Assembly: GCA_021802545.1 (NCBI GenBank)
Contig: JAJZRS010000001.1
Span: 94,822 to 158,821, forward strand
Length of the DNA stretch: 64,000 nt
DNA from: Pseudomonadota bacterium
GTDB lineage: Bacteria; Pseudomonadota; Gammaproteobacteria; Burkholderiales; JABEVD01
Reading direction: 5' to 3'
The notes beneath the pieces are model-generated. The model saw only the letters and a list, made by a program, of their open reading frames with translations. It made no database searches and had not been told where the DNA came from. The translations under genes and the position numbers were made by a program. Shown in pieces: positions 1,528-61,896 of this stretch; position 1 is the first letter of the stretch; every line of letters starts with the position of its first letter.

Positions 1528-1536
1528 TGGTATAAT
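1528..1536 (+). promoter_or_regulatory. Extended -10 promoter of kdsD, 7 bases from the ATG
   Basis: TGG followed by a perfect TATAAT (1531-1536) forms an extended -10 element. Only seven bases separate it from the kdsD ATG at 1544, so transcription should start at or next to the start codon. No -35 hexamer is recognisable at 16-18 bp spacing, and there is no Shine-Dalgarno sequence. This predicts a leaderless transcript. Confidence 0.65.
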
Positions 1537-1543
1537 TCCCTAC

Positions 1544-2530
1544 ATGATACCTCAATCCAACAGAGTGTTTTCGGTGCTGGAAAAAGCCTCCGAAGTGCTT
1601 GTAATCGAATCCGACGCGGTCAGGGGACTGATCGGAAGGCTGGACCATCGTTTCGTCGAGGCGGTGGATCTGATCCTCAATTGCAGCGGCAGGGTCGTGG
1701 TGAGCGGCATGGGAAAATCGGGGCATGTCGCGAGGAAAATCGCTTCCACCCTGGCCAGCACAGGGACGCCTGCCTTTTTCGTGCATCCCGGGGAAGCGAG
1801 CCACGGCGATCTCGGGATGATCACGAGGCAGGATGTTTTCGTCGCGCTTTCCAATTCCGGGGAGAGCGCTGAACTCCTCACCATCGTGCCGCTCGTCAAG
1901 CGCCAGGGCGCAAAGCTGATTTCCATGACCGGGAATCCCGCATCGAGCCTTGCGAGAGAAGCGGACATCCATCTTGATTCTGGCGTCGACAAGGAGGCCT
2001 GCCCGCTCGGGCTCGCCCCCACCGCCAGCACGACTGCAGCGCTTGCCCTGGGGGATGCGCTGGCCGTGACGCTTCTGGTCGAGCGCGGCTTCAGTGCGGC
2101 GGATTTCGCCATGTCGCATCCCGGAGGCTCCTTGGGGATCAGGCTTCTGACCCATGTCAGCGACGTCATGCGCAAGCATGATGCGATTCCTGCCGTTTCA
2201 GACAAGGCATTCCTGTCGGATGCGCTGCTCGAAATGTCGAGAAAGGGGATGGGCATGACGGCGATCGTCTGCCCTAATGGGAAAGTGGAAGGCATATACA
2301 CGGACGGCGATTTGAGGCGCACCCTGGAGAAAGAGATCGATTTTCACAAGACGCCCGTGACCGAGATCATGACGAAGAATCCCAGGACGATCGCTCCAAA
2401 CAGGCTTGCCGCCGAAGCCGTGCAGCTCATGGAAGAGTACAAGATCACGCAGCTGCTTGTCGTCGGCGATGCCGGAAAGCTTGTCGGTGCGCTCAACATG
2501 CACGACTTGTTGCGGGCCAAGGTGATCTGA
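1544..2530 (+). CDS. kdsD: D-arabinose 5-phosphate isomerase (KdsD/KpsF)
   Basis: A 328-residue protein that converts ribulose 5-phosphate to arabinose 5-phosphate, the first step toward KDO for lipopolysaccharide. An N-terminal SIS domain carries SGMGKSGHVARKIAST and HPGEASHGDLGMI. Two CBS repeats follow from about residue 205 (VSDVMRKHDAIP and VTEIMTKNPRTI). The length is normal for KdsD. ATG 1544 was chosen because the family N-terminus starts near here and a strong -10 box lies just upstream; the frame is open further upstream but crosses that promoter. kdsC follows with no gap, starting an LPS operon that continues through lptB. Confidence 0.96.
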   Translation: MIPQSNRVFSVLEKASEVLVIESDAVRGLIGRLDHRFVEAVDLILNCSGRVVVSGMGKSGHVARKIASTLASTGTPAFFVHPGEASHGDLGMITRQDVFVALSNSGESAELLTIVPLVKRQGAKLISMTGNPASSLAREADIHLDSGVDKEACPLGLAPTASTTAALALGDALAVTLLVERGFSAADFAMSHPGGSLGIRLLTHVSDVMRKHDAIPAVSDKAFLSDALLEMSRKGMGMTAIVCPNGKVEGIYTDGDLRRTLEKEIDFHKTPVTEIMTKNPRTIAPNRLAAEAVQLMEEYKITQLLVVGDAGKLVGALNMHDLLRAKVI

Positions 2531-8816: not shown

Positions 8817-9181
8817 TCCGGCTCGTCAAGGCTGGCGATTGGCTGGTCATCATGATCGGCCTCTTTTTCGTGGCTTATCTTTTCGCGAATCTCTGGCACA
8901 TGGGCGGCGCGCAAAAGGTATTGATCAGGAAAGGCGGGGAAGTCTTCGCCGAACTCAGCCTCGACGAGAACAGGAAAATCAGCGTGCCGGGCCCCTTGGG
9001 CGTGAGCCTTGTCGTCATATCGCAAGGCAAAGCCAGGGTGGAGAAGGATCCCGGGCGGCACCAGTATTGCGTCAGGCAGGGATGGCTGAAAAATGCGGGA
9101 GACGTCGCAATCTGCCTGCCCAATCAGGTGAGCGTCGAACTTCTTGGGGCTGAAAAGACCTATGATTCGCTCAACTATTGA
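8813..9181 (+). CDS. NusG domain II-containing membrane protein
   Basis: A 122-residue protein with one N-terminal membrane helix (about residues 10-28, [19 protein letters not shown]) and a small extracytoplasmic beta domain of the NusG_II type, including [20 protein letters not shown]. The two cysteines around that stretch are characteristic. I take GTG 8813, which overlaps the rapZ stop; starts further upstream would lie deep inside rapZ. It overlaps the Gx transporter gene downstream. Such pairs are often found near flavin-transfer or Rnf-type genes, but none is present here. The function is unknown. Confidence 0.8.
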
Positions 9182-9707
9182 AATTTCGGCCACGGCCGAG
9201 GACAGGCAGATTGCGCGCATGGCGGCAGCCGCGATCGGGCTTTCCTTCGTGGATGCGGCCATACCGCTTCCGATTCCTGGAATCAAGCCGGGGCTTGCCA
9301 ATATCGTCGTCCTGGTCGTGCTGTCGAGATATGGCCTGGGCGCTGCGATATGGGTGTCCTTGCTCAGGGTGCTGGCGGGAAGCCTGCTGTTCGGCTCCTT
9401 CCTTTCCCCGGGATTCTTTCTCAGCTTGTCCGGCGCGCTTTGCAGCCTGGCAGCACTTGCGCTTGCCGGCATCTTGCCCGAGCGCCATTTCGGCGCAGTG
9501 AGCCGCAGCGTGATCGCAGCATTCGCTCATATTGGCGGGCAATTGCTGCTTGCCTATTTGTGGCTGATCCCCCATGTCGGGCTCTTTTCGCTGGTCCCCT
9601 TGTTCGCTTCCGCCGCTCTTCTTTTCGGCACGGTCAACGGGCTCGTCGCCGCGCATTTCCTTGAATACAAAAAAGTTGAGGCGCCTCATCAAGTTCCCCT
9701 ACAATGA
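9162..9707 (+). CDS. Gx transporter family (heptaprenyl diphosphate synthase component I-like) membrane protein
   Basis: A 181-residue integral membrane protein with about five helices and the family phrase FVDAAIPLPIPGIKPGLANIV, where the conserved G-x-x-x-GLAN loop lies. The family resembles substrate-binding S components of ECF transporters; its older name, heptaprenyl diphosphate synthase component I, is not a proven activity. ATG 9162 overlaps the NusG-II gene by 20 bases; an upstream TTG at 9144 is less likely. Its gene ends five bases before ubiX, and the end of the gene contains a candidate ubiX promoter. Confidence 0.8.
   Translation: MIRSTIEISATAEDRQIARMAAAAIGLSFVDAAIPLPIPGIKPGLANIVVLVVLSRYGLGAAIWVSLLRVLAGSLLFGSFLSPGFFLSLSGALCSLAALALAGILPERHFGAVSRSVIAAFAHIGGQLLLAYLWLIPHVGLFSLVPLFASAALLFGTVNGLVAAHFLEYKKVEAPHQVPLQ
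9676..9705 (+). promoter_or_regulatory. Candidate ubiX promoter inside the Gx gene end
   Basis: TTGAGG (9676-9681), an 18-base spacer and TACAAT (9700-9705) make a plausible sigma-70 promoter. The ubiX ATG is only six bases beyond the -10 box and has no Shine-Dalgarno sequence, so transcripts from this promoter would be leaderless. Confidence 0.5.
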
Positions 9708-9711
9708 CCGG

Positions 9712-10329
9712 ATGAACAAGGAAAAAACCATCGTGCTGGCATTGACCGGCGCTTCCGGCATGCCCTACGCGATCCGCCTGATGGAGAGAATACTGGCAAG
9801 CGGCGCACGCCTCTACCTGATCTACTCAAACGTGGCCCAGATCGTCATCAAGCAGGAAATGGGGCTCACCCTGCCGTCGAGAGCCTCCGAGGCCGAAGAA
9901 TACTTCATTGAGCGTTTCAGGCCTGAGCATGGAAAGCTGCGCGTTTTCGGGCGTGAAGAATGGTTCGCCCCCGTCACGTCCGGATCCAATCCGCCCGATG
10001 CGATGGTGGTCTGCCCATGCACCATGGGCAGCCTGGCCGCATTTGCAGCGGGCATGAGCCAGAACATCATCGAACGCGCCGTCGACGTCATGCTGAAGGA
10101 AAAGAAGAAACTCGTCATCGTGCCGAGGGAGACGCCGTTTTCGACCATCCATCTCGAAAACATGCTGAGGCTCGCTCAGGCGGGCGCGGTCATCCTGCCG
10201 GCCAACCCCGGGTTTTACCAGCATCCTCAGACGGTCGACGATCTGGTCGACTATATCGTTGCCAGGATACTGGATCATTTGGACATTCCCCAGGACATTT
10301 CAGCAAGATGGGGTGAAGGAGAGGCATGA
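9712..10329 (+). CDS. ubiX: Flavin prenyltransferase UbiX
   Basis: A 205-residue flavoprotein. The N-terminal FMN-binding motif is [15 protein letters not shown], followed by [19 protein letters not shown] and [16 protein letters not shown]. UbiX joins a dimethylallyl group to FMN to make the prenyl-FMN cofactor of the UbiD decarboxylase used in ubiquinone synthesis. ATG 9712 is chosen from family length; the open frame runs back into the Gx gene. It overlaps sucC by four bases (ATGA). Confidence 0.96.
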
Positions 10330-19982: not shown

Positions 19983-20432
19983 ATGAAGCAAATGCAAAAA
20001 GGTTTTACGCTGATCGAACTGATGATCGTGGTCGCGATCATCGGCATTCTGGCTGCAGTCGCCATTCCGCAGTACCAGGATTACGTTTCCCGCGCCAAGC
20101 TGTCCAAGGTCGCTTCCTTCGCTGACCCGCTCAAGACGGCAATCGGCATGTATGCTCAGGAAAACAACGCATTGCCGACCTTCGCGATCGCGGACGGCGG
20201 CAGCTGGACGAGCCTGGGCCTGACGAGCGCGCCCACGCACACCACGGAAGTCAATTCCGTATCCCTCGATGCGACCGGCGCTTTGACGCTCGGCATCGGC
20301 TTCACGGTCGGATCGACTGCCGCGCCTACCGTGAAATTCGCACCGACCCTGACCGGCACGTCGGTCACCTGGACGATGACCTGCTCCCCAACGGGGAACG
20401 CCAACATGATCAAGGTGTTCGGCTGCTCCTGA
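19983..20432 (+). CDS. pilA: Type IV pilin major subunit
   Basis: A 149-residue type IVa prepilin. The short leader MKQMQKG is cleaved before the phenylalanine of [20 protein letters not shown], with glutamate at mature position 5. The hydrophobic N-terminal helix is followed by [14 protein letters not shown] and a Ser/Thr-rich globular domain. Cys134 and Cys148 near the C-terminus form the D-region disulfide loop. ATG 19983 is fixed by the leader length. A sigma-54 promoter precedes it and a strong terminator follows, so it is a monocistronic, separately regulated gene. Confidence 0.95.
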
Positions 20433-22721: not shown

Positions 22722-22730
22722 TGTTAAAAT
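22722..22730 (+). promoter_or_regulatory. Extended -10 element of dnaE, 6 bases from the ATG
   Basis: TGT followed by TAAAAT (22725-22730) forms an extended -10 box; six bases later comes the dnaE ATG at 22737. No Shine-Dalgarno sequence or clear -35 is present. The layout matches kdsD, nadE and the Tsx-like gene and predicts a leaderless transcript. Confidence 0.55.
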
Positions 22731-22736
22731 GACGGC

Positions 22737-25700
22737 ATGGCAGATCCCCGTTTCGTCCACCTGAGGCTACACAGCGAATATTCAGTGTCGGACAGCATCG
22801 TCAGGCTCGATGACGCGCTGGAAGCCGCGCGCCAGAATGGAATGCCTGCGCTCGCGCTCACCGACTTGTCCAATGTCTTCGGCCTCGTGAAGTTCTACCT
22901 GGCTGCGAGAAAATCAGGAGTCAAACCGATCGCCGGCTGCGATGTCTGGCTGGAAAAAGGGCATCGCATGCTGCTGCTTTGCCAATCCCGGCGAGGCTAT
23001 CTCAAGCTTTGCGAAATCCTGTCGCTCGCCTACAGGAAAAACCAGAACAGGGGCAGGGCGGAAGTGAGGCCGGAATGGTTCGAAGACAGCGAGGGCTTGA
23101 TCGCGCTTTCAGGCGCGCATCAAGGCGAGATCGGCCATGCGCTCTTGAACGGCGGCGATGCGCTTGAGGCTGCAAGGAAATGGAGCGCGCTTTTCCCCGG
23201 AAGATTCTACATCGAGCTGCAGCGGCTGGATGCCCAGAGCGAACTCTGCGTCCAGCATTCGATCAGGCTGGCCTCCGAACTGGGCCTGCCTGTCGTGGCG
23301 ACCCATCCGGTCCAGTTCATGAGACGCGAAGACTACAAGGCCCACGAAGCCAGGGTCTGCATCGCCGAGGGGGCCATCCTGGGGGATCAAAGGCGGGTCA
23401 GGCATTTCAGCGAGGAGCAGTATTTCAAGACCCAGGACGAGGTGGCAGCGCTTTTCTCGGACATCCCCGAAGCGCTCGAGAACAGCGTGGAAATCGCCAA
23501 ACGCTGCAACTTGACCCTCGAGATCGGCAACAACAAGCTGCCGGCTTTCCCTACGCCCCAGGGCCAGAGCCTGGAAGAATACCTGACGGAGCGCGCGATC
23601 ACCGGGCTGGACGCGCGCATGAAGCTACTCTTCCCGGAAGCTGGTGCACGTGAAAACCAGTATCCGAAATACAGGGAAAGGCTGGATTTCGAGGTCGCCA
23701 TGATCATCAGGATGGGCTTTCCAGGCTACTTCCTGATCGTCGCGGACTTCATCAACTGGGCCAAGCAGAACGGCGTTCCGGTGGGGCCGGGAAGAGGTTC
23801 GGGCGCAGGCTCGTTGGTGGCCTATTGCATCGGCATCACCGATCTCGACCCGCTCCGATACGATCTCCTTTTCGAGCGCTTCCTGAATCCAGAGCGCGTC
23901 TCCATGCCCGACTTCGACATCGACTTCTGCCAGGACGGGCGGGAACGCGTGATCGACTACGTCAGGCAGAAATACGGAGAGGAAAGCGTCTCGCAGATAG
24001 CGACCTTCGGCACCATGGCGGCCAAGGCCGTGGTGCGCGACGTCGGGCGCGTGCTCGATCTGCCTTACGGTTTCGTCGATTCACTGGCCAAGCTGATTCC
24101 CTTCGAGATCGGCATGACGCTGAAAAAAGCGCGCGAGCAGGAACCCGAGATCAACCAGCGGGCGGAGAACGAGGAGGAGGTTGCCGAGCTCCTCGAGCTC
24201 GCCACCGTCCTCGAGGGACTCACGCGCAACGTCGGCATGCATGCGGGAGGCGTGCTGATCGCACCGGGGAAACTGACCGATTTCTGCCCCATCTATTGCG
24301 CGGAAGGGAGCGATGCGTCGGTCAGTCAGTTCGACAAGGACGATGTCGAGAAGGTCGGGCTCGTCAAGTTCGACTTCCTTGGCTTGAGGACCCTCACCAT
24401 CATCGACTGGGCTGTGCGTTATCTCAGGATGCTCGACGAGAAGGCGCACGATTTTGCCATCGAAACAATTCCGCTCGACGATGCGCCCACCTATACGCTT
24501 CTGAAGTCGTGCGACACGACCGCCGTATTCCAGCTCGAATCGAGAGGGATGAAGGATCTCGTGAGGCGGTTGCAGCCTGACTGTTTCGAGGACGTCGTCG
24601 CGCTTGTCGCCCTGTTCAGGCCCGGGCCGCTTCAGTCGGGCATGGTCGACGACTTCATCAATCGCAAGCACGGCAGGGCAAAGGTCGATTATTTCCATCC
24701 CGACCTCGAGGGCGTGTTGAAGCCGACCTACGGCGTGATCGTGTACCAGGAGCAGGTGATGCAGATCGCCCAGATCCTTGGCGGCTATTCGCTGGGCGCT
24801 GCCGACCTGCTCAGACGCGCCATGGGAAAAAAGAAGCCCGAGGAAATGGCCGAGCACAGGACCATTTTCGTCGGAGGCGCTACAGAGCGCGGCGTGCCCG
24901 AATGGCAGGCGCAGCAGCTTTTCGATCTGATGGAGAAATTCGCCGAATATGGCTTCAACAAGTCCCATTCGGCAGCCTATGCGCTGGTGGCCTACCAGAC
25001 GGCCTATCTCAAGGCCCATTATTCAGCCGCCTTCATGGCGTCCACCCTCTCGGCCGACATGGACGATACCGACAAGGTGAAGAATTTCTATGTCGATTGT
25101 CTGTCCAGCGGCCTGGAATTGCTTCCCCCCGACATCAATCTGAGCGATTACCGCTTCTTTCCAGTCGATGCCAAGCGCATACGCTATGGCCTCGGCGCGG
25201 TGAAAGGGACCGGAGAGGCTGCGATACAGGCCATACTCGATGCGAGAAAAGAGGGGCCCTTCAGGGATCTTTTCGATTTCTGCAAGCGGGTGGACAAGCG
25301 CACCGTGAACAGGCGGGTGATCGAGTCCCTGGTCAGGGCGGGCGCGTTCGATGCGCTGAATGCCAACAGGCGCAGCCTGCTCGCTTCTGTCGGAACAGCG
25401 ATGGAATCCGCCGAGCAGTCGAGCCGCATGGCCAACCAGCACACGCTTTTCGGCGAAGCGGAAGAAGAATGTGCCTGCGTCGACATCCCCGATTTTTCGA
25501 TGAAGGACAGGCTGAAGGAGGAAAAGGCGAGCCTGGGCTTCTATTTCAGCGGCCATCCCTTCGATGCCGATATCGAAGAGGTTTCGCATTTCTGCAAGCT
25601 GAGGCTCCGCGATCTGAACGTCGCAAAAGGGCCAGCGAAGCCCGTCCTCCTCGCGGGCATCGTGACGGGAGCGAGGATACAGCAGACGAGGCGCGGCAGA

Positions 25701-26117
25701 ATGGCGATCGTCATGATCGACGACGGAACCGCCCAGGTCGAGGTTTCCATTTTTTCGGAAGCCTTCGAGGCCAAAAGGGAGCTCATCAAGGAAGACCAGA
25801 TCCTTATCGTCGAGGGCAAGGCGAGTTACGACGATTTTTCCGGAGGGACGCGGGTCGTCGCCGAAAATCTCTACGATATCGCAGGCGCAAGAGCGAAATT
25901 CGCCAGGGCGCTCGAATTCTATTGCGATTCCGCTTCCAACGTGGAGCGGCTGATGGATCTGATCGCGCCCTTCAAGGGAGAAGGCTGCACCGCGCGCATG
26001 GTCTACAGCAACGGCAAGGCGAGCTGCGAGGTGGAGCTTTGGCAGGTGAGGCCTGAAGATACGCTGATCGAATCGCTCAGGAACCATTTCAAGGAAGTGA
26101 GGCTGGTTTACCCATGA
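22737..26117 (+). CDS. dnaE: DNA polymerase III alpha subunit
   Basis: A 1126-residue replicative polymerase. The N-terminal PHP domain begins FVHLRLHSEYSVSDSIVR. The palm carries the catalytic aspartates in PDFDIDFCQDGRERVIDY (D392, D394). VGPGRGSGAGSLVAYCIGIT and the fingers follow. A (HhH)2 region and an OB domain (AGIVTGARIQQTRRGRMAI) lie toward the C-terminus. It is slightly shorter than E. coli DnaE (1160), normal for the family. The ATG at 22737 agrees with the family start. Its stop overlaps the cupin gene (ATGA). Confidence 0.98.
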   Translation: MADPRFVHLRLHSEYSVSDSIVRLDDALEAARQNGMPALALTDLSNVFGLVKFYLAARKSGVKPIAGCDVWLEKGHRMLLLCQSRRGYLKLCEILSLAYRKNQNRGRAEVRPEWFEDSEGLIALSGAHQGEIGHALLNGGDALEAARKWSALFPGRFYIELQRLDAQSELCVQHSIRLASELGLPVVATHPVQFMRREDYKAHEARVCIAEGAILGDQRRVRHFSEEQYFKTQDEVAALFSDIPEALENSVEIAKRCNLTLEIGNNKLPAFPTPQGQSLEEYLTERAITGLDARMKLLFPEAGARENQYPKYRERLDFEVAMIIRMGFPGYFLIVADFINWAKQNGVPVGPGRGSGAGSLVAYCIGITDLDPLRYDLLFERFLNPERVSMPDFDIDFCQDGRERVIDYVRQKYGEESVSQIATFGTMAAKAVVRDVGRVLDLPYGFVDSLAKLIPFEIGMTLKKAREQEPEINQRAENEEEVAELLELATVLEGLTRNVGMHAGGVLIAPGKLTDFCPIYCAEGSDASVSQFDKDDVEKVGLVKFDFLGLRTLTIIDWAVRYLRMLDEKAHDFAIETIPLDDAPTYTLLKSCDTTAVFQLESRGMKDLVRRLQPDCFEDVVALVALFRPGPLQSGMVDDFINRKHGRAKVDYFHPDLEGVLKPTYGVIVYQEQVMQIAQILGGYSLGAADLLRRAMGKKKPEEMAEHRTIFVGGATERGVPEWQAQQLFDLMEKFAEYGFNKSHSAAYALVAYQTAYLKAHYSAAFMASTLSADMDDTDKVKNFYVDCLSSGLELLPPDINLSDYRFFPVDAKRIRYGLGAVKGTGEAAIQAILDARKEGPFRDLFDFCKRVDKRTVNRRVIESLVRAGAFDALNANRRSLLASVGTAMESAEQSSRMANQHTLFGEAEEECACVDIPDFSMKDRLKEEKASLGFYFSGHPFDADIEEVSHFCKLRLRDLNVAKGPAKPVLLAGIVTGARIQQTRRGRMAIVMIDDGTAQVEVSIFSEAFEAKRELIKEDQILIVEGKASYDDFSGGTRVVAENLYDIAGARAKFARALEFYCDSASNVERLMDLIAPFKGEGCTARMVYSNGKASCEVELWQVRPEDTLIESLRNHFKEVRLVYP

Positions 26118-29626: not shown

Positions 29627-31672
29627 ATGGCATGGCGATTTTTCAGGGCAGGCGGTTTCGACCAGGTCAGGCTCGAGTCGGGGGATGAGCTTTCGGATAT
29701 CGGAAAGCTGGACAGGAAGCTCTGGGTCGCCCTCAGCTGTCCGATCGAGGGTGTCGAGTTCGATTCGGATACTCTCGCCATGATCGACTCGGACGGAGAC
29801 GGGCATATCCGCGACAAGGAACTTGTCGACGCCGTCGAATGGGCCGCCTCCTGCCTTTCCGACAAGAAATGGCTGGCGAGCGGCGAAGATTCCCTCCCGC
29901 TTTCCGCGATCGCAAGCGAGGAAATACTCGCCGCTGCCAGGCACATGCTCAAGACGCTGGGCAAGCCGGATATGGATGAGATATCCCTGTCCGACTGCGC
30001 GGATATGAAGGAAATTCCTGTGCTGTTCAATGGAGACGGAATCGTCCCGATCGACGCTGCAGAAAGCGAATCCGAGAGGCGCATCATGGCCGAAATCCTG
30101 GACTTTTTCGGGGAAGGAAAATCTGGAATCACGCAGGACATGATCGATGCCTTCTTCGACGACATCAATGCTTACGCGGCATGGCTGGAAAAGGGCATGC
30201 GCGATCCTGCAGTCATGCCTCTGGGGGAAAAGACTGGAGAAGCCTTTTCTTCGTGGCAGGCAGTCAGGGCAAAGGCGGAGGATTATTTCAGGCGATGCCG
30301 CATCGTCGCCTACGATCCGAACAACGCTTCCGCGATCAACCCTTCCGAAACGGTTTTTTCCAATCTCTCCGCGCTCGATCTGTCTCTGGCCGACCAGGAA
30401 ATCGCCTCCTTGCCGCTGGCCAGGGCAGAATCTGGCAAGGCCATGCCGCTTTTCGACGGACTGAACCCGCTCTGGATCGATCCGCTTCGCGCATTTCACG
30501 ACTGCGCCGTCCTTCCGTTGCTCGCCAGGAAAAAGAGTCTTTCCGAAGAAGACTGGAAAAAATTGTGCATGAAATTGCAACCTTACCTGGACTGGCAGTC
30601 GGAAAAGCCGGAAAGCGCGGTTGCAAAGCTCGGGGACGGACGGATCCTGGAAATTGCGGCAGGCGGGGAGAATGACTTGCTTGAGAAGCTCATCGAACGC
30701 GATCTTGCTCTGGAGCCTGAAGCGAAAGCCATGGCCAACGTCGAGAAGCTTCTGCGCTATTGCAGGGACCTTTCTTCGTTTGCCAACAATTTCGTTTCCT
30801 TCAGGGATTTCTATACGGGAATGGACCAGGCCGTCTTCCAGGCCGGAACGCTTTACATGGACGGCAGGAGCTGCGAGCTCTGCGTTTTCGTGAAAGACAT
30901 GGCCAAGCATGCCATGCTGGCTTCAATGAGCAGGATCTGCCTCGCCTATTGCGAATGCAGGCGAGGAGGGGAAAAGATGATCATCGCGGCAGCCTTCACC
31001 GCGGGCGATTCGGACCAGCTCATGACGGGAAGGAACGGCGTTTTCTACGACAGGAAGGGACAGGACTGGGATGCGACGATCGTCAGGATCATCGACCATC
31101 CGATCAGCATACGCCAGGCTTTCACGTCCCCTTACAAGACCATGGGAAAGATGATCGGCGAACAGATCCAGAAGATTGCCGCATCCCGCTCTCACGCCAT
31201 ACAGGAAAGCGCTGCCAAAGCCATTTCAGAATCGGAAAAGATGGCGGCGGCCAAGCCCTTCGACGTGGGCAAGTTCGCAGGCATATTCGCCGCCATCGGC
31301 CTTGCCGTGGGCGCCATCGGGGGGGCGATCGCTTCGATCGTGACGGGGCTCCTGGGGCTCAAATTCTGGCAGCTTCCATTCGCGCTCTTCTTCCTGGCGA
31401 TGGCTGTCTCTGGCCCTTCAATGCTGATCGCGTGGTTCAAGCTCAGGCAGCGCAACCTGGGGCCGATACTGGATGCAAACGGATGGGCGATCAACACGAG
31501 GGCCAAGATCAACATTCCATTCGGCACATCCCTGACGCAGCTCGCGAAGCTTCCGGAAGGCGCTGAAAGATCGCTTGTCGATCCTTATGCGGAGAAGAAG
31601 CGGCCCTGGATAGGGTATTTCGTCATCGCGCTTCTGCTGTTTCTCGCGCTCATCTGGCGCATCTTAGGCTAG
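29627..31672 (+). CDS. EF-hand membrane protein of unknown function
   Basis: A 681-residue protein. A canonical EF-hand loop DSDGDGHIRDKE lies at about residues 54-65, with DGIVPIDAAESE near 140 as a possible degenerate partner. The C-terminal ~130 residues hold three or four membrane helices (FAGIFAAIGLAVGAIGGAI, FALFFLAMAVSGPSMLI, WIGYFVIALLLFLALIW). The large N-terminal part resembles no enzyme I recognise. Similar EF-hand proteins of about this size occur in betaproteobacteria without a known role. GGGGA precedes the ATG. Its TAG shares CTAG with the stop of the convergent permease gene. Confidence 0.7.
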   Translation: MAWRFFRAGGFDQVRLESGDELSDIGKLDRKLWVALSCPIEGVEFDSDTLAMIDSDGDGHIRDKELVDAVEWAASCLSDKKWLASGEDSLPLSAIASEEILAAARHMLKTLGKPDMDEISLSDCADMKEIPVLFNGDGIVPIDAAESESERRIMAEILDFFGEGKSGITQDMIDAFFDDINAYAAWLEKGMRDPAVMPLGEKTGEAFSSWQAVRAKAEDYFRRCRIVAYDPNNASAINPSETVFSNLSALDLSLADQEIASLPLARAESGKAMPLFDGLNPLWIDPLRAFHDCAVLPLLARKKSLSEEDWKKLCMKLQPYLDWQSEKPESAVAKLGDGRILEIAAGGENDLLEKLIERDLALEPEAKAMANVEKLLRYCRDLSSFANNFVSFRDFYTGMDQAVFQAGTLYMDGRSCELCVFVKDMAKHAMLASMSRICLAYCECRRGGEKMIIAAAFTAGDSDQLMTGRNGVFYDRKGQDWDATIVRIIDHPISIRQAFTSPYKTMGKMIGEQIQKIAASRSHAIQESAAKAISESEKMAAAKPFDVGKFAGIFAAIGLAVGAIGGAIASIVTGLLGLKFWQLPFALFFLAMAVSGPSMLIAWFKLRQRNLGPILDANGWAINTRAKINIPFGTSLTQLAKLPEGAERSLVDPYAEKKRPWIGYFVIALLLFLALIWRILG

Positions 31673-32685
31673 AAAAGGACTGTCGCAATCAGGCCTGCGG
31701 CGATGCCTGAAGCGGCCACGCCGGCGCCGATCAGGAACCTCGTTTTCAGGTCGAGAACCCGGCCAAGCATGGCGAGTGAGGGCAGGCTCACTGCCGGCAG
31801 CGTCATGATGAGCGCGGCAGCGGGACCTGCGCCCAAGCCCAGCGCGAACATGCCCTGCACGATGGGAATCTCTCCCGCAGTGGGAATGACGAAGAGCGTC
31901 CCGGCCAGCGACATGGCGGCAATCCATAAGACGCTGTCGTGCGCGCCGAGCACAGGGAAGAGCCATGCTCTCGCCGCGCCGAGCAGGAGCACGAGAGCGA
32001 AATATTCGGGCACGAGGCCGATCGAAAGGGCCGCGAATTCCCTGATCCAGCGCGACATGAAGCTTCCGTTCTCGTTCTCGGGCGGGATGATCGGCCCGCT
32101 CGAGACCGTTTTTTCGCCAACGCGCTCGGCGAGCAGGGCAATCCCGATCACCATGAGAACGCCCAGTGCCGCCCTGAAGATGGACCATTTCCAGCCGAGC
32201 ACGAATCCCATGAAAATCAGGGTGGCCGGATTCAGGACGGGATTGGAAAGCCACCATGCGACGACGCTGCCCGTGGATGCGCGGCTTTGCCGCATGCCGA
32301 CCGCAACCGGGGCAGCGCAGCAGGTGCACATCATCGAGGGCAGGCCTGCAAGACTGCCGATCGCGATATTCCTGAAGCCCATTTTTCCAAGGGCATGGCT
32401 CATCCATGCGGAAGGAACCAGCGCCTTGATGCCCGAGCCGAGCAGAAGGCCGAGAACGAGCGCCTGCCAGATCGACTTGATGTAGACGGCGGCATAGCCG
32501 AATGCCGCATGCCAGGAAGGAGAGGGAATCGATGCTGATTTTCCGGTGAGGATCGAGCCGCCTATGGCGTGATGGCTCTGCGCGACGAACGCCTTGCCGT
32601 AATAGGGGATCCACTTGACCATGGCGACCCCGGCCAGGGCGACGAGCACCAGCAACAGGATTCTCAGGCGAAGGTTGTTTTGCAT
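31669..32685 (-). CDS. Permease of the ArsP/DUF318 type
   Basis: A 338-residue membrane protein with about eight to ten helices. The family signature MCTCCAAPVAVGMRQ, followed by SVVAWWLSNPVLNPATLIFM, marks the permease family that includes ArsP (organoarsenical efflux). The C-x-C-C cluster may contact thiophilic substrates. The substrate is unknown, and no ars genes are nearby. The 3' end overlaps the EF-hand gene by four bases. Confidence 0.85.
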   Translation of the reverse strand: MQNNLRLRILLLVLVALAGVAMVKWIPYYGKAFVAQSHHAIGGSILTGKSASIPSPSWHAAFGYAAVYIKSIWQALVLGLLLGSGIKALVPSAWMSHALGKMGFRNIAIGSLAGLPSMMCTCCAAPVAVGMRQSRASTGSVVAWWLSNPVLNPATLIFMGFVLGWKWSIFRAALGVLMVIGIALLAERVGEKTVSSGPIIPPENENGSFMSRWIREFAALSIGLVPEYFALVLLLGAARAWLFPVLGAHDSVLWIAAMSLAGTLFVIPTAGEIPIVQGMFALGLGAGPAAALIMTLPAVSLPSLAMLGRVLDLKTRFLIGAGVAASGIAAGLIATVLF

Positions 32686-32708
32686 GGCGGCATTCTATCA
32701 GAGTGAAT

Positions 32709-41504: not shown

Positions 41505-41513
41505 TGGTAAAAT
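41505..41513 (+). promoter_or_regulatory. Extended -10 element of the Tsx-like gene, 7 bases from the ATG
   Basis: TGG plus TAAAAT (41508-41513) is followed seven bases later by ATG 41521, exactly as in kdsD. No Shine-Dalgarno sequence is present. The flanking 40 bases are strongly A+T-rich. Confidence 0.55.
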
Positions 41514-41520
41514 TTTGTAG

Positions 41521-42432
41521 ATGATTGAAACTTTCGAAGGACTCTGCGTCTTTTCCCTGGCGCATCGACTCGTTCGCCTTCTCAAGGCTGCATCGATGCT
41601 GTCAGGCATTTTAATGATGAGTGATGCAGCAGCCTGGAGCGATGCGTCCGTCGGGTACCGGTACGGGACGGATTTTGCAGAGCCCTTTGAAGGCAACCGG
41701 GTCGCGAAGAACATCTTCAACGTGCGGTACGCCAACGGCTATGCATACGGCACGAACTTCTTCAATGCGGACCTGCTGTTATCGAACGGAAACGACCCCG
41801 CCTCTCCCGGGACTGGCAGAGGTGCGCACGAGGCGTATGTCGTCTACAGGCACACCCTCGATTTCGGCAAGGCCGTCGGCCGCAACCTCTCGTTCGGTCC
41901 ATTCAAAGGCATCGGCGCGACCGCAGGCTTCGACCTGAACGCCAAGCACGACGCAGGATACAACTCGAGGAAGCGCATGCTCGCCCTGGGCCCCACGTTG
42001 ATGGCGGACGTGCCAGGATTCCTCAACGCGAGCATCCTTGAACTGTGGGAGAGCAACGAACCATATGACCGCCATACCGGCGCGACCGATCAATGCAATT
42101 GCCGCTACCATTACCGCCCACATCCCGAACTGGACCTCAACTGGAGCATTCCCTTCCACTTGGGCGGCATCGCGCTCTCCTACGAAGGGTATGCGGATTT
42201 CATCTCGGCCAAGGGGAAGGACGAGTTCGGGAACGACACGGCACCCGAGACGAACATCGACTCGCAGATCATGTACGACGTCGGCCACTTTTTGGGCAAG
42301 CGGAAAAACACCCTGAAGGCGGGGTTCGAATACCAGTACTGGAAGAACAAGTTCGGGAACAGCGCGTCCGGTCCAGCAGGAAGCGGCGCGTACGCCAGGA
42401 CCAAAATGATCCGTGTCGAGTACCATTATTGA
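41521..42432 (+). CDS. Tsx-like outer-membrane channel protein
   Basis: A 303-residue protein. An unusually long N-terminus leads to a signal-like segment (SMLSGILMMSDAAA, cleavage before WSD). The mature part has SVGYRYGTDFAEPFEGNRVA, NIFNVRYANGYAYGTNFFNA, alternating beta strands and a C-terminal strand ending MIRVEYHY, an aromatic end typical of outer-membrane barrels. It resembles the nucleoside-specific Tsx/outer envelope protein family; the substrate is not predictable. The family and signal support a start at 41521, or at the internal ATG 41596 if the first residues are not used. Confidence 0.78.
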   Translation: MIETFEGLCVFSLAHRLVRLLKAASMLSGILMMSDAAAWSDASVGYRYGTDFAEPFEGNRVAKNIFNVRYANGYAYGTNFFNADLLLSNGNDPASPGTGRGAHEAYVVYRHTLDFGKAVGRNLSFGPFKGIGATAGFDLNAKHDAGYNSRKRMLALGPTLMADVPGFLNASILELWESNEPYDRHTGATDQCNCRYHYRPHPELDLNWSIPFHLGGIALSYEGYADFISAKGKDEFGNDTAPETNIDSQIMYDVGHFLGKRKNTLKAGFEYQYWKNKFGNSASGPAGSGAYARTKMIRVEYHY

Positions 42433-58601: not shown

Positions 58602-60203
58602 TCAGCCCGGTTTCGACGCGTGCTCCCTCGTCGCATGGAACTCGATGTCGGGCCAGCGTTCCATGACGAGTTCCAGGTTCACCCGCGAAGTTGCGAAATA
58701 GGCGAGGCTCCCGCCCGCGTCATAAGCGACCTGGTTCGCGAGCGTCTTTTCGAATTCCTCGAGCTTCTTCTGGTTTTTCGAGGTGACCCAGCGCGCAGAC
58801 TGGATCGATACCGGTTCGAAGACCGCGTCGACCCCGTATTCGGATTCAAGCCTGTGCGCCACGACCTCGAATTGAAGCACGCCTACCGCGCCGAGCACAA
58901 GATCCCCGCCAGAGACCGGCTTGAAAACCTGGACTGCCCCTTCCTCGCCGAGTTGCTGCAACCCCTTGTGCAGCTGCTTGATCTTCAATGGGTTTCTTAT
59001 CCTGGCCACTCTGAAGAGCTCGGGGGCGAAATAGGGGATGCCGGTGAACTGGAGCGACTCTCCTTCGCTGAAGCTGTCCCCGATCTGCACGTTGCCGTGG
59101 TTGTGGATCCCGATGATGTCGCCGGCGTAGGCTTCCTCGACCTGCTCACGCTGGTGCGCCATGAAGGTGATGACGTTGGAAACCTTGAGGTCTCGATCCA
59201 GCCTCAGATGCCTGATCTTCATCCCGCGCTCGAACCTTCCCGAGCATACCCTCAGAAAGGCGATCCTGTCCCTGTGCATGGGATCCATGTTGGCCTGGAT
59301 CTTGAAGACGAATCCCGAGAAGGCGGCTTCCAGAGGGGAGACCATTCTCGATGTCGCGTCCCTGGTCTGCGGCATGGGAGCCCAGTCGACGAGCGCGTTG
59401 AGGATTTCCCTGACCCCGAAATTGTTTATCGCGGAACCGAAGAACACCGGGGTCTGGACGCCCTCGAGAAACGCCTCCAGATCGAAGGGATGGGATGCGC
59501 CCCTCACCAGATCGACTTCCATCCTGAGCTGCGCGATTTCGAGCGGGAAAAGCTCGTCGAGCTTGGGATTGTCTATGCCTGAAATCTTTTCGAAGGACTG
59601 CTTCGCGTCCTCACGTCCTGCCTCGAAAAGCAGGATCTCGTCCTTCATCAGGTGGTAAACGCCCCTGAAGGTTTTTCCCATGCCGATCGGCCAGGTCACC
59701 GGCGCGCACTGGATCTTCAGGACGGATTCGACTTCGTCGAGCAGGGAAAGCGGGTCCCTCGCCTCCCTGTCCATCTTGTTCATGAAGGTGAGGATGGGAG
59801 TGTTCCTCATCCTGCAGACGTTGAGCAGCTTGATCGTCTGCTCCTCGACGCCCTTGGCGGCGTCGATCACCATCAGGGCGGAATCGACGGCGGTGAGCAC
59901 GCGATAGGTGTCTTCCGAAAAGTCCTCGTGGCCCGGTGTGTCAAGCAGGTTGAACACATGGTCGCTGTAGTCGAACTGCATGACCGAGCTTGCGACCGAG
60001 ATTCCACGCTGCTTTTCGATGTCCATCCAGTCGGATGTCGCGTGCCTCCCGCTTTTCCTGCCCTTGACCGTGCCTGCAAGCTGGATCGCTCCCGAGAAGA
60101 GCAGGAGCTTCTCGGTGAGCGTTGTTTTTCCTGCGTCCGGGTGGGATATGATGGCGAAGGTGCGCCTTTTCCCCACCTCGGCTGCTATCGATTCAGTCGT
60201 CAT
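58602..60203 (-). CDS. prfC: Peptide chain release factor 3
   Basis: A 533-residue GTPase that recycles RF1/RF2. G1 is [17 protein letters not shown], followed by [36 protein letters not shown] and [12 protein letters not shown]. This is the RF3 signature, not EF-G. ATG 60203 has no Shine-Dalgarno sequence. It diverges from nadE with 88 bases between. Confidence 0.97.
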
Positions 60204-60276
60204 TTAATGATTCCGCGAAACGCGTTAGTCTAATCAAAATCGCAAGGGAAGTCTCTACCAATAGAATCCCTCGCGA

Positions 60277-60285
60277 TGCTATGAT
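60277..60285 (+). promoter_or_regulatory. Extended -10 element of nadE, 6 bases from the ATG
   Basis: TGC plus TATGAT (60280-60285) is followed by six bases and ATG 60292. No Shine-Dalgarno sequence and no clear -35 are present. The layout matches kdsD, dnaE and the Tsx-like gene. Confidence 0.55.
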
Positions 60286-60291
60286 TCGCAA

Positions 60292-61896
60292 ATGCGAAAT
60301 GGCACCAAAATTGCGATTGCCCAGATCAACTGCGCTGTGGGCGACATGAAAGGCAATGCAGAAAAGATCCTCGAAATGGCGGAAAAAGCCAGGGATTCAG
60401 GTGCATCTATTCTTTTGACGCCGGAGCTTGCGATCTGCGGCTATCCGCCTGAGGATCTCCTCCTGAGATCGGGATTCTACCGGGCGTCGAACGAGGCATT
60501 GAAGCATCTCGCGCAAAGGATAAAAGGCATTTCGGTCGTCGTGGGACACCCGATCGAGCTGGATGGAAAGCGATACAATGCCGCCTCATTGATCAGGGAA
60601 GGCAGGATAGAAGCCACCTACCATAAGCTCGAACTGCCGAATTATGCCGTTTTCGACGAAGAGCGCTATTTTGAAAGCGGCAGCAATCCCGTCGTTTTCG
60701 ATCTTGGCGGCATCAAGTTCGGCATCGCGATCTGCGAGGACATCTGGGAGAAGAAGGCGGCGCAGCTGGCCATGAAGGCCGGAGCGCAAGTGCTGCTCGT
60801 TCTCAACGCCTCCCCCTTCCACATGGAAAAGCAGGCGCTGCGCTACAAAATTGCACGGGAAAGGATCAAGGAAGGCGGATTTTCACTCGTCTATGCGAAT
60901 CTTGTCGGCGGGCAGGACGAACTGGTTTTCGACGGCGCATCCTTCGCCATGGACGAAAAGGGGGAGGTCGTGGCGAGAATGCCTTCCTTCGAGGAGGGGC
61001 TCGGCATTGTCGAAATCGGCAAGGGCGGAGAGATCCACCCTGAATGCTCTCTGGAGGAGAGCGTGTACAAGGCATTGTGCCTGGGGGTTTCGGACTACGT
61101 GGGCAAGAACCGATTTCCCGGCGTTCTGCTCGGACTTTCAGGCGGGATCGATTCGGCCTTGACGCTTGCCGTTGCCGTCGATTCTCTCGGCGCAGACAAG
61201 GTGCATGCAGTGATGATGCCGTCACGATACACCGCGCAGATGAGCCTGGATGATTCGAGGGAAATGGCGCAAATCTTCGGCGTGCGCTATACGGAATTGC
61301 CGATCGAGGCCATCCATTCCCTTTTCCTCGAGACGCTCTCGAAAGAATTCGAAGGACGCCCTGTAGACGCAACTGAGGAGAACATCCAGGCGAGAGTCAG
61401 GGGAACGCTCCTCATGGCGCTTTCCAACAAGAGCGGTGCCATCGTGCTCACGACCGGAAACAAGAGCGAAATGGCGGTGGGTTATTCGACGCTCTACGGC
61501 GACATGGCGGGCGGGTTCGCCGTGCTGAAAGACATCAAGAAAACCCTTGTTTACCGGCTCGCGAATTTCAGGAACGGGCTGGGGCATGTGATTCCTGATC
61601 GCGTTTTGACAAGACCGCCTTCGGCAGAATTGCGCGAGGACCAGAAAGACCAGGACAGCCTCCCCCCCTACGAAGTGCTCGACGCCGTCATGGAGGCCTA
61701 TATGGAGCAGGATCTTTCCCTTCATGAAGTCGCGAAATTAGGCATAAACTTGGAAGATGCGAGGCGCGTGATCCATCTCATCAAGATCAACGAATACAAG
61801 CGCAGGCAGTCGCCTGTTGGCATCAGGATCACGCAGCGCGGCTTCGGGCGCGACTGGCGCTATCCCATTACTTCGAAATTTTTGGATGAATACTGA
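60292..61896 (+). CDS. nadE: Glutamine-dependent NAD+ synthetase
   Basis: A 534-residue two-domain enzyme. The N-terminal nitrilase-like glutaminase has E45 (LTPELAICGYPPED), the lysine in YHKLELPNYAVFDE and C148 (GIAICEDIWE). The C-terminal NAD synthase has the P-loop LGLSGGIDSALTLAVA (~280) and TTGNKSEMAVGYSTLYGDMA. It amidates deamido-NAD using glutamine nitrogen and ATP. It lies next to glnB, a common pairing that links NAD synthesis with nitrogen signals. Confidence 0.97.
   Translation: MRNGTKIAIAQINCAVGDMKGNAEKILEMAEKARDSGASILLTPELAICGYPPEDLLLRSGFYRASNEALKHLAQRIKGISVVVGHPIELDGKRYNAASLIREGRIEATYHKLELPNYAVFDEERYFESGSNPVVFDLGGIKFGIAICEDIWEKKAAQLAMKAGAQVLLVLNASPFHMEKQALRYKIARERIKEGGFSLVYANLVGGQDELVFDGASFAMDEKGEVVARMPSFEEGLGIVEIGKGGEIHPECSLEESVYKALCLGVSDYVGKNRFPGVLLGLSGGIDSALTLAVAVDSLGADKVHAVMMPSRYTAQMSLDDSREMAQIFGVRYTELPIEAIHSLFLETLSKEFEGRPVDATEENIQARVRGTLLMALSNKSGAIVLTTGNKSEMAVGYSTLYGDMAGGFAVLKDIKKTLVYRLANFRNGLGHVIPDRVLTRPPSAELREDQKDQDSLPPYEVLDAVMEAYMEQDLSLHEVAKLGINLEDARRVIHLIKINEYKRRQSPVGIRITQRGFGRDWRYPITSKFLDEY

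Follow-up and report, generated by a model that had tools for sequence, protein, structure and literature searches.

The window, a stretch of 64,000 nucleotides, is part of contig C32 of a 2.77 Mb draft genome of an uncultured betaproteobacterium. Five of its genes, namely kdsD, ubiX, dnaE, a Tsx-like gene and nadE, carry a hexamer of the -10 type just 6 or 7 bases before their ATG (Table 1). These arrangements were described in an earlier note, which took them for extended -10 promoters of leaderless mRNAs, and all five were read exactly at the coordinates given there. A sixth candidate, which that note had overlooked, precedes a permease gene on the minus strand (start at 32685). The product of the first gene scores above the cut-off of the NCBIfam model TIGR00393 and below the own cut-off of the KdsD equivalog model NF008141. 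Its name, KdsD, is thus a putative one, given by resemblance and context. The divergent neighbour of this gene in the window is of the Na+/H+ exchanger type.

Table 1. Predicted leaderless-type promoters of the window and the genes that belong to them.
Feature	Position	Strand	Description	Basis
Predicted kdsD promoter	1528-1546	+	TGG, TATAAT 1531-1536, 7-base spacer, ATG 1544-1546	sequence read
kdsD (putative)	1544-2530	+	KpsF/GutQ-family sugar-phosphate isomerase, SIS and CBS domains, 328 aa	Pfam
Predicted ubiX promoter	9676-9714	+	-35-like TTGAGG 9676-9681, N18, TACAAT 9700-9705, N6, ATG 9712-9714	
ubiX	9712-10329	+	flavin prenyltransferase family, 205 aa	PF02441; TIGR00421 above cut-off
Predicted dnaE promoter	22722-22739	+	TGT, TAAAAT 22725-22730, 6-base spacer, ATG 22737-22739	
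dnaE	22737-26117	+	DNA polymerase III alpha subunit, 1126 aa	Pfam
Sixth candidate promoter	32683-32700	-	TGA, TAGAAT (32697-32692), 6-base spacer, start codon 32685-32683	
Permease gene behind the sixth candidate	31669-32685	-	ArsP_1-type permease	PF03773
Candidate promoter of the Tsx-like gene	41505-41523	+	TGG, TAAAAT 41508-41513, 7-base spacer, ATG 41521-41523	
RF3-type release factor gene	58602-60203		divergent from nadE	PF16658
Predicted nadE promoter	60277-60294	+	TGC, TATGAT 60280-60285, 6-base spacer, ATG 60292-60294	
nadE	60292-61896	+	NAD+ synthase with N-terminal carbon-nitrogen hydrolase domain, 534 aa	Pfam/NCBIfam

The start codons of dnaE, nadE and the Tsx-like gene are the earliest possible ATG, GTG or TTG in their frames; the frames of kdsD and ubiX extend further in the 5' direction. 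The N-terminus of the Tsx-like protein is doubtful. As had been claimed, the five sites are devoid of a Shine-Dalgarno (SD) sequence, each scoring 3 and none having four or more bases of TAAGGAGGTGA at the SD position. Strong SD sequences were likewise recovered at the neighbouring genes: hpf (6269), sucC (10326) and glnB (61909) are each preceded by a match of 6 bases and cspA (42768, minus strand) by one of 5, as scored at crude start calls and under the gene names of the earlier note. The predicted ubiX promoter, inclusive of its -35-like element, sits within the 3' end of the gene called upstream of it (9162-9707), and ubiX may, therefore, also receive read-through from upstream. Between nadE and the divergent release factor gene (60204-60291), a block GGAAGTCTCTACCAAT(C/A)GAATC is nearly unchanged in 8 genus loci; it could be the site of a regulator or a shared promoter element.

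The Tsx-like gene (41521-42432) is the weakest of the five cases, and its hexamer could by itself be a product of chance. Searches of Pfam (E up to 1) and of NCBIfam (E up to 0.1) assigned it to no family. Homologues occur in just two of the 59 relatives searched (G031, 53% identity; G054, 47%), and the gene was perhaps acquired horizontally.

The distance between hexamer and start codon was studied in a gene-start sample of 856 kb (31% of the genome), made up of the window and 40 stretches, with 773 gene calls by a crude script of our own. The -10 hexamer was defined as TATAAT, with no more than one deviation allowed in positions 3-5, and k denotes the bases between hexamer and start codon. 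Before in-frame ATGs, 13 hexamers lie at k = 6 and 7 at k = 7, which makes 20 at these two spacings; the remaining 18 spacings between 0 and 19 share 33. With a background of about 1.8 per spacing below 20, the Poisson probability of this peak is about 2e-9. As for the other start codons, GTG has 4 cases at k = 6 and TTG shows no peak. A second, broad hump of hexamers, about 22-36 bases before ATG, is that of ordinary leadered promoters. Once the background is subtracted, the 24 matches at k 6-7 with ATG or GTG suggest that the sample contains around 19 genes of the leaderless type, about 2-3% of all its genes.

The earlier note had proposed a genome-wide scan for TGNTANNNT-N5-8-ATG and a comparison with shuffled controls. 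The scan gave 123 matches, against 75 for the backward pattern. Of 199 genes for which just one ATG is a plausible start, 5 have the hexamer at k 6-7, while dinucleotide shuffles gave a mean of 0.73 and a maximum of 4 in 500. A stricter pattern, TGNTANAAT-Nk-ATG with k from 0 to 30, occurs 81 times in the whole genome and 15 times backward. Since the backward pattern is no promoter, controls of this kind overstate the spacing enrichment, and spacing controls were used instead. By these, the strict matches number 4, 9 and 5 at k 5, 6 and 7 (18 in all), against 63 over the other 28 spacings, or 2.25 each (P 2.4e-4). In eight congeners, the raw strict pattern shows a weak excess (76 at k 5-7 against 50 at k 11-13; P 0.013). 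The excess is likewise weak in other families, where 51 genomes give 391 and 321, with 24 genomes higher and 15 lower. The raw count is diluted because some of the matched ATGs are no gene starts: of the ten unsampled strict matches in the own genome, six open frames of 138-304 codons and four open 3-9 codons.

The sequences around the two classes of hexamer also differ. SD sequences of four or more bases accompany 2 of the 20 hexamers at k 6-8 and 55 of the 131 at k 20-40 (856 kb; Fisher P 0.006). TGn stands before 11 of the 24 hexamers at k 6-7, 27 of the 130 at k 22-36 and 5 of the 254 inside genes (P 0.018), and a -35-like match (4 of 6) in 9 of 24, 33 of 130 leadered cases and 31 of 254, respectively. 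At the sequence level, the marks of leaderless genes are thus present, with a -10 at about 6-8 bases above chance and the SD absent (0 of the 5 sites), as is the mark of extended -10 promoters, with TGn in excess over background at k 6-7. Shorter upstream gaps were considered as a general cause of the geometry and rejected. Behind a co-directional gene, the median gap is 23.5 bases at k 6-7 and 43 at k 22-36; behind a divergent one, it is 108.5 and 136, respectively, a difference that is uninformative because it is about equal in size to the missing leader.

By Pfam, the genes of the sample with k 6-8 include those for histidinol dehydrogenase, an aminopeptidase P-type M24 peptidase, a glycosyltransferase, a YchJ-like protein, a sigma-54-dependent response regulator, a Nuo51-type flavoprotein, a cytidine-type deaminase, a cyclic-nucleotide-binding protein, a T2SS C-type protein, Leu/Phe-tRNA transferase, a histidine phosphatase, a HAD hydrolase, a transglutaminase-like protein, a Host_attach protein and a DUF3301 protein. 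An AlgH-like protein (yqgE) and a formyltransferase with an ACT domain (purU) are also among them; such short gene names are a reading of the Pfam families. A part of this list must be background matches. The six unsampled genes with strict matches encode a GreA/GreB factor, a Fur-family regulator, endonuclease V, and histone-deacetylase-like, AhpC/TSA and Methyltransf_4 proteins.

Contig C32 has 221 called genes, of which 88 have comparable starts in two congeners, giving three genomes for comparison. Six of the 88 carry the hexamer at k 6-7 in the own genome, and five of these (dnaE, nadE, histidinol dehydrogenase, kdsD and ubiX) keep the geometry in all three genomes; the other 58 spacings together yield 3 conserved cases among the 88 genes. 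The sixth is the ATG at 19992 of a pilin, which was rejected as a conserved case: it fits the geometry without being conserved, and single fits can, therefore, be accidental. The type IV pilin gene (19983-20432) has a GAGGG-type SD at its first ATG (19983), also found in two relatives, and 19992 is its second ATG.

Across the genus, all six hexamer positions are invariant at kdsD (9 genomes) and at dnaE, nadE and ubiX (8 each; for ubiX, the contig of one of the 9 genus loci does not include the start). Among the six spacer positions that follow the hexamer, 0 are invariant at kdsD, 1 at dnaE, 2 at nadE and 1 at ubiX. An unchanging hexamer followed by a drifting spacer is the pattern predicted by a promoter held at a fixed distance from the start codon. 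The distance itself is kept: the kdsD spacer is 6 or 7 in 9/9 genus genomes, and dnaE and nadE retain the geometry in 8/8 loci each. TGn is invariant at kdsD (TGG, 9/9), dnaE and nadE and absent at ubiX. The purU gene was rejected as a conserved case, the geometry being present in 1 of 8 genus loci and 0 of 22 others. Its GTATAAT lies 6 bases before the ATG in the own genome (L331) and 20-23 bases before it in seven congeners (L332-L338); the own genome seems to have lost the leader recently, by deletion of some 14-17 bases.

Beyond the genus, kdsD stands out. The analysis covered the 57 genomes, out of 60, that contain a full match to it: 9 of the genus and 48 from 47 other families, leaving aside a second kdsD-like copy in G025. 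The geometry (k 6-8) is present in 26 of the 48 other-family genomes, with spacers of 6, 7 and 8 in 6, 7 and 13 of them, respectively, while every other spacing occurs in at most 2 genomes. An SD of four or more bases is found in none of these 26 genomes, against 11 of the 22 without the geometry (P 3e-5). By record title, among the best 80 of 121 loci, the geometry is present in 29 of 30 betaproteobacteria, which include close kin (Thiobacillus, Xenophilus, Rhodoferax), and in 0 of 33 gammaproteobacteria; nine of the 80 loci could not be classed by title (L010, L013, L015, L018, L024, L031, L062, L073 and L076), and another eight are those of the genus itself. The gene upstream of kdsD, as called by a simple longest-frame rule with 7 loci of short flanks left out, is divergent in 29 of 33 betaproteobacterial loci, with 26 of the 29 gaps below 60 bases and 10 of the 29 coming out negative, and co-directional in 23 of 31 gammaproteobacterial loci.

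For the other genes, the counts rest on the best matches, at most 30, among the 60 genomes. The yqgE geometry is present in 9/9 genus loci and 7/21 elsewhere (12/21 if the first base may also differ). Outside the genus, it is found at dnaE in 5/22, at nadE in 4/22 and at ubiX in 3/21 loci, and the leadered control ssb has it in 0/9 genus loci and 0/21 elsewhere. The breadth of conservation at kdsD is the most interesting part of these results and goes beyond what the earlier note had claimed.

Taken together, the -10 spacing at these genes very probably marks the starts of leaderless mRNAs, as judged from sequence and comparison. It is proposed that sigma-70-type promoters, often of the extended -10 kind with TGn, are so placed that transcription would begin at the A of the start codon or 1-2 bases before it. 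The resulting mRNA would possess neither a leader nor an SD, and ribosomes would have to initiate on a 5'-terminal AUG. Such terminal-AUG initiation would be carried out by 70S ribosomes, or by 30S subunits with IF2. Both the use of these sites by RNA polymerase in vivo and the translation of the messages by this route are inferred. The first base of the -10 lies 11.7 +/- 0.9 bp before the transcription start site (TSS) in Cupriavidus metallidurans (PMC9045368), so that transcription would begin on the A where the spacer has 6 bases. Against this stands the spacer of 8, the commonest at kdsD outside the genus, which would leave a leader of about 2 bases unless the choice of start site shifts. 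A real promoter at these sites does not exclude promoters further upstream that give leadered transcripts. The proposal of the earlier note is thus supported by the spacing peak, the absence of SD, the excess of TGn and the conserved hexamer and distance, while its Tsx-like example could not be secured. The case is weakened by the small excess of the raw pattern in other genomes, by the 22 of 48 other-family genomes without the geometry at kdsD, and by its low frequency at dnaE, nadE and ubiX outside the genus.

Three other readings were weighed. The promoters may be real and the proteins may begin at a later in-frame codon, so that the mRNA has an ordinary short leader. At kdsD, the crude caller indeed preferred an in-frame GTG ten codons downstream, and the N-terminus varies among families; in the Tsx-like protein, a long stretch precedes a part that by eye resembles a signal peptide, and a later ATG is present. 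Yet the kdsD GTG has no SD of four or more bases (score 3), the homology of dnaE starts within a few codons of its ATG, other families included, and codon-position conservation starts at the ATG for dnaE and ubiX, making a later start very unlikely.

The promoters may instead lie further upstream, with the A/T-rich hexamer aiding translation of an SD-less leader by being unstructured or by binding S1. SD-less, AT-rich starts do exist in bacteria (PMC5397173), and the leaderless reading is built on sequence and comparison rather than on a mapped transcript. The signal, however, is more than general A/T-richness: it consists of one particular hexamer with TGn, placed at a narrowly defined distance and unaltered throughout the genus. 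At purU, moreover, the GTATAAT found at 20-23 bases in seven congeners and at 6 here behaves as a promoter and not as a translation element. This account is, therefore, quite improbable. Accidental A/T-rich hexamers do occur singly, as seen from the pilin ATG at 19992 and from the background of each spacing in the 856 kb; for the set, chance is contradicted by the peak, the shuffles and the conservation and is hardly credible.

As regards the history of the leaderless starts, kdsD in betaproteobacterial families mostly adjoins a divergent gene at a few tens of bases, and crowding of the two promoters would be a possible reason for the loss of a leader. It is tentatively suggested, as a possibility that falls somewhat short of the probable, that the leaderless-type start at kdsD, and less so at yqgE, is an ancient feature of betaproteobacteria which selection has maintained, rather than something that merely results from such crowding. 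If true, the message of kdsD, the opener of the kdsD-to-rpoN gene run, would be leaderless across much of the class, and kdsD would be translated according to the rules of terminal-AUG initiation, under stress for example. No paper on conserved leaderless starts at kdsD or yqgE was found in the open-access literature. The kdsD geometry, traceable through dozens of families alongside SD-led forms, offers a natural experiment on the loss and retention of leaders, of which the mostly co-directional kdsD of gammaproteobacteria is a part. At purU, an apparent gain is seen within one genus. Gene-start callers that lean on the SD may misplace such starts, as the crude caller did at kdsD and ubiX.

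Extended -10 promoters have the form TGn-TATAAT. The promoters predicted here for kdsD, dnaE, nadE and the Tsx-like gene resemble them in that TGn precedes the -10, and that of ubiX is unlike them, with a -35-like TTGAGG and no TGn; less than half of the k 6-7 matches (11/24) carry TGn. Leaderless mRNA in betaproteobacteria is an already known kind. In Burkholderia cenocepacia, 72 primary TSSs coincide exactly with a start codon and a further 42 fall within 10 nt of one; tRNAs account for 24 of these leaderless transcripts (PMC4603805). In C. metallidurans 4.67% of primary TSSs have a 5' UTR below 5 nt, rpoN among them (PMC7563307). Because such mRNAs have been mapped in Burkholderia and Cupriavidus, the statement of the earlier note that they are rare in studied betaproteobacteria was too strong. 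Leaderless genes were also predicted in 9 of 71 betaproteobacterial genomes, with an average of 6.8% of genes (PMC3160421).

The present genes are like those of B. cenocepacia J2315 (PMC4603805) and C. metallidurans CH34 (PMC7563307) in that a TA-rich -10 directly before the start codon replaces the SD in a minority of genes. They are unlike them in that the 5' ends were measured there and are predicted here, and the leaderless sets of both are rich in transcriptional regulators, whereas core enzymes lead here. A likeness is also seen to the TA-led genes of Zheng et al. 2011 (PMC3160421), in which TANNNT about 12 bp before the start codon was taken as leaderless. In that work genes were counted per genome, while here single genes were followed across families and tested against the loss of the SD and the order of genes.
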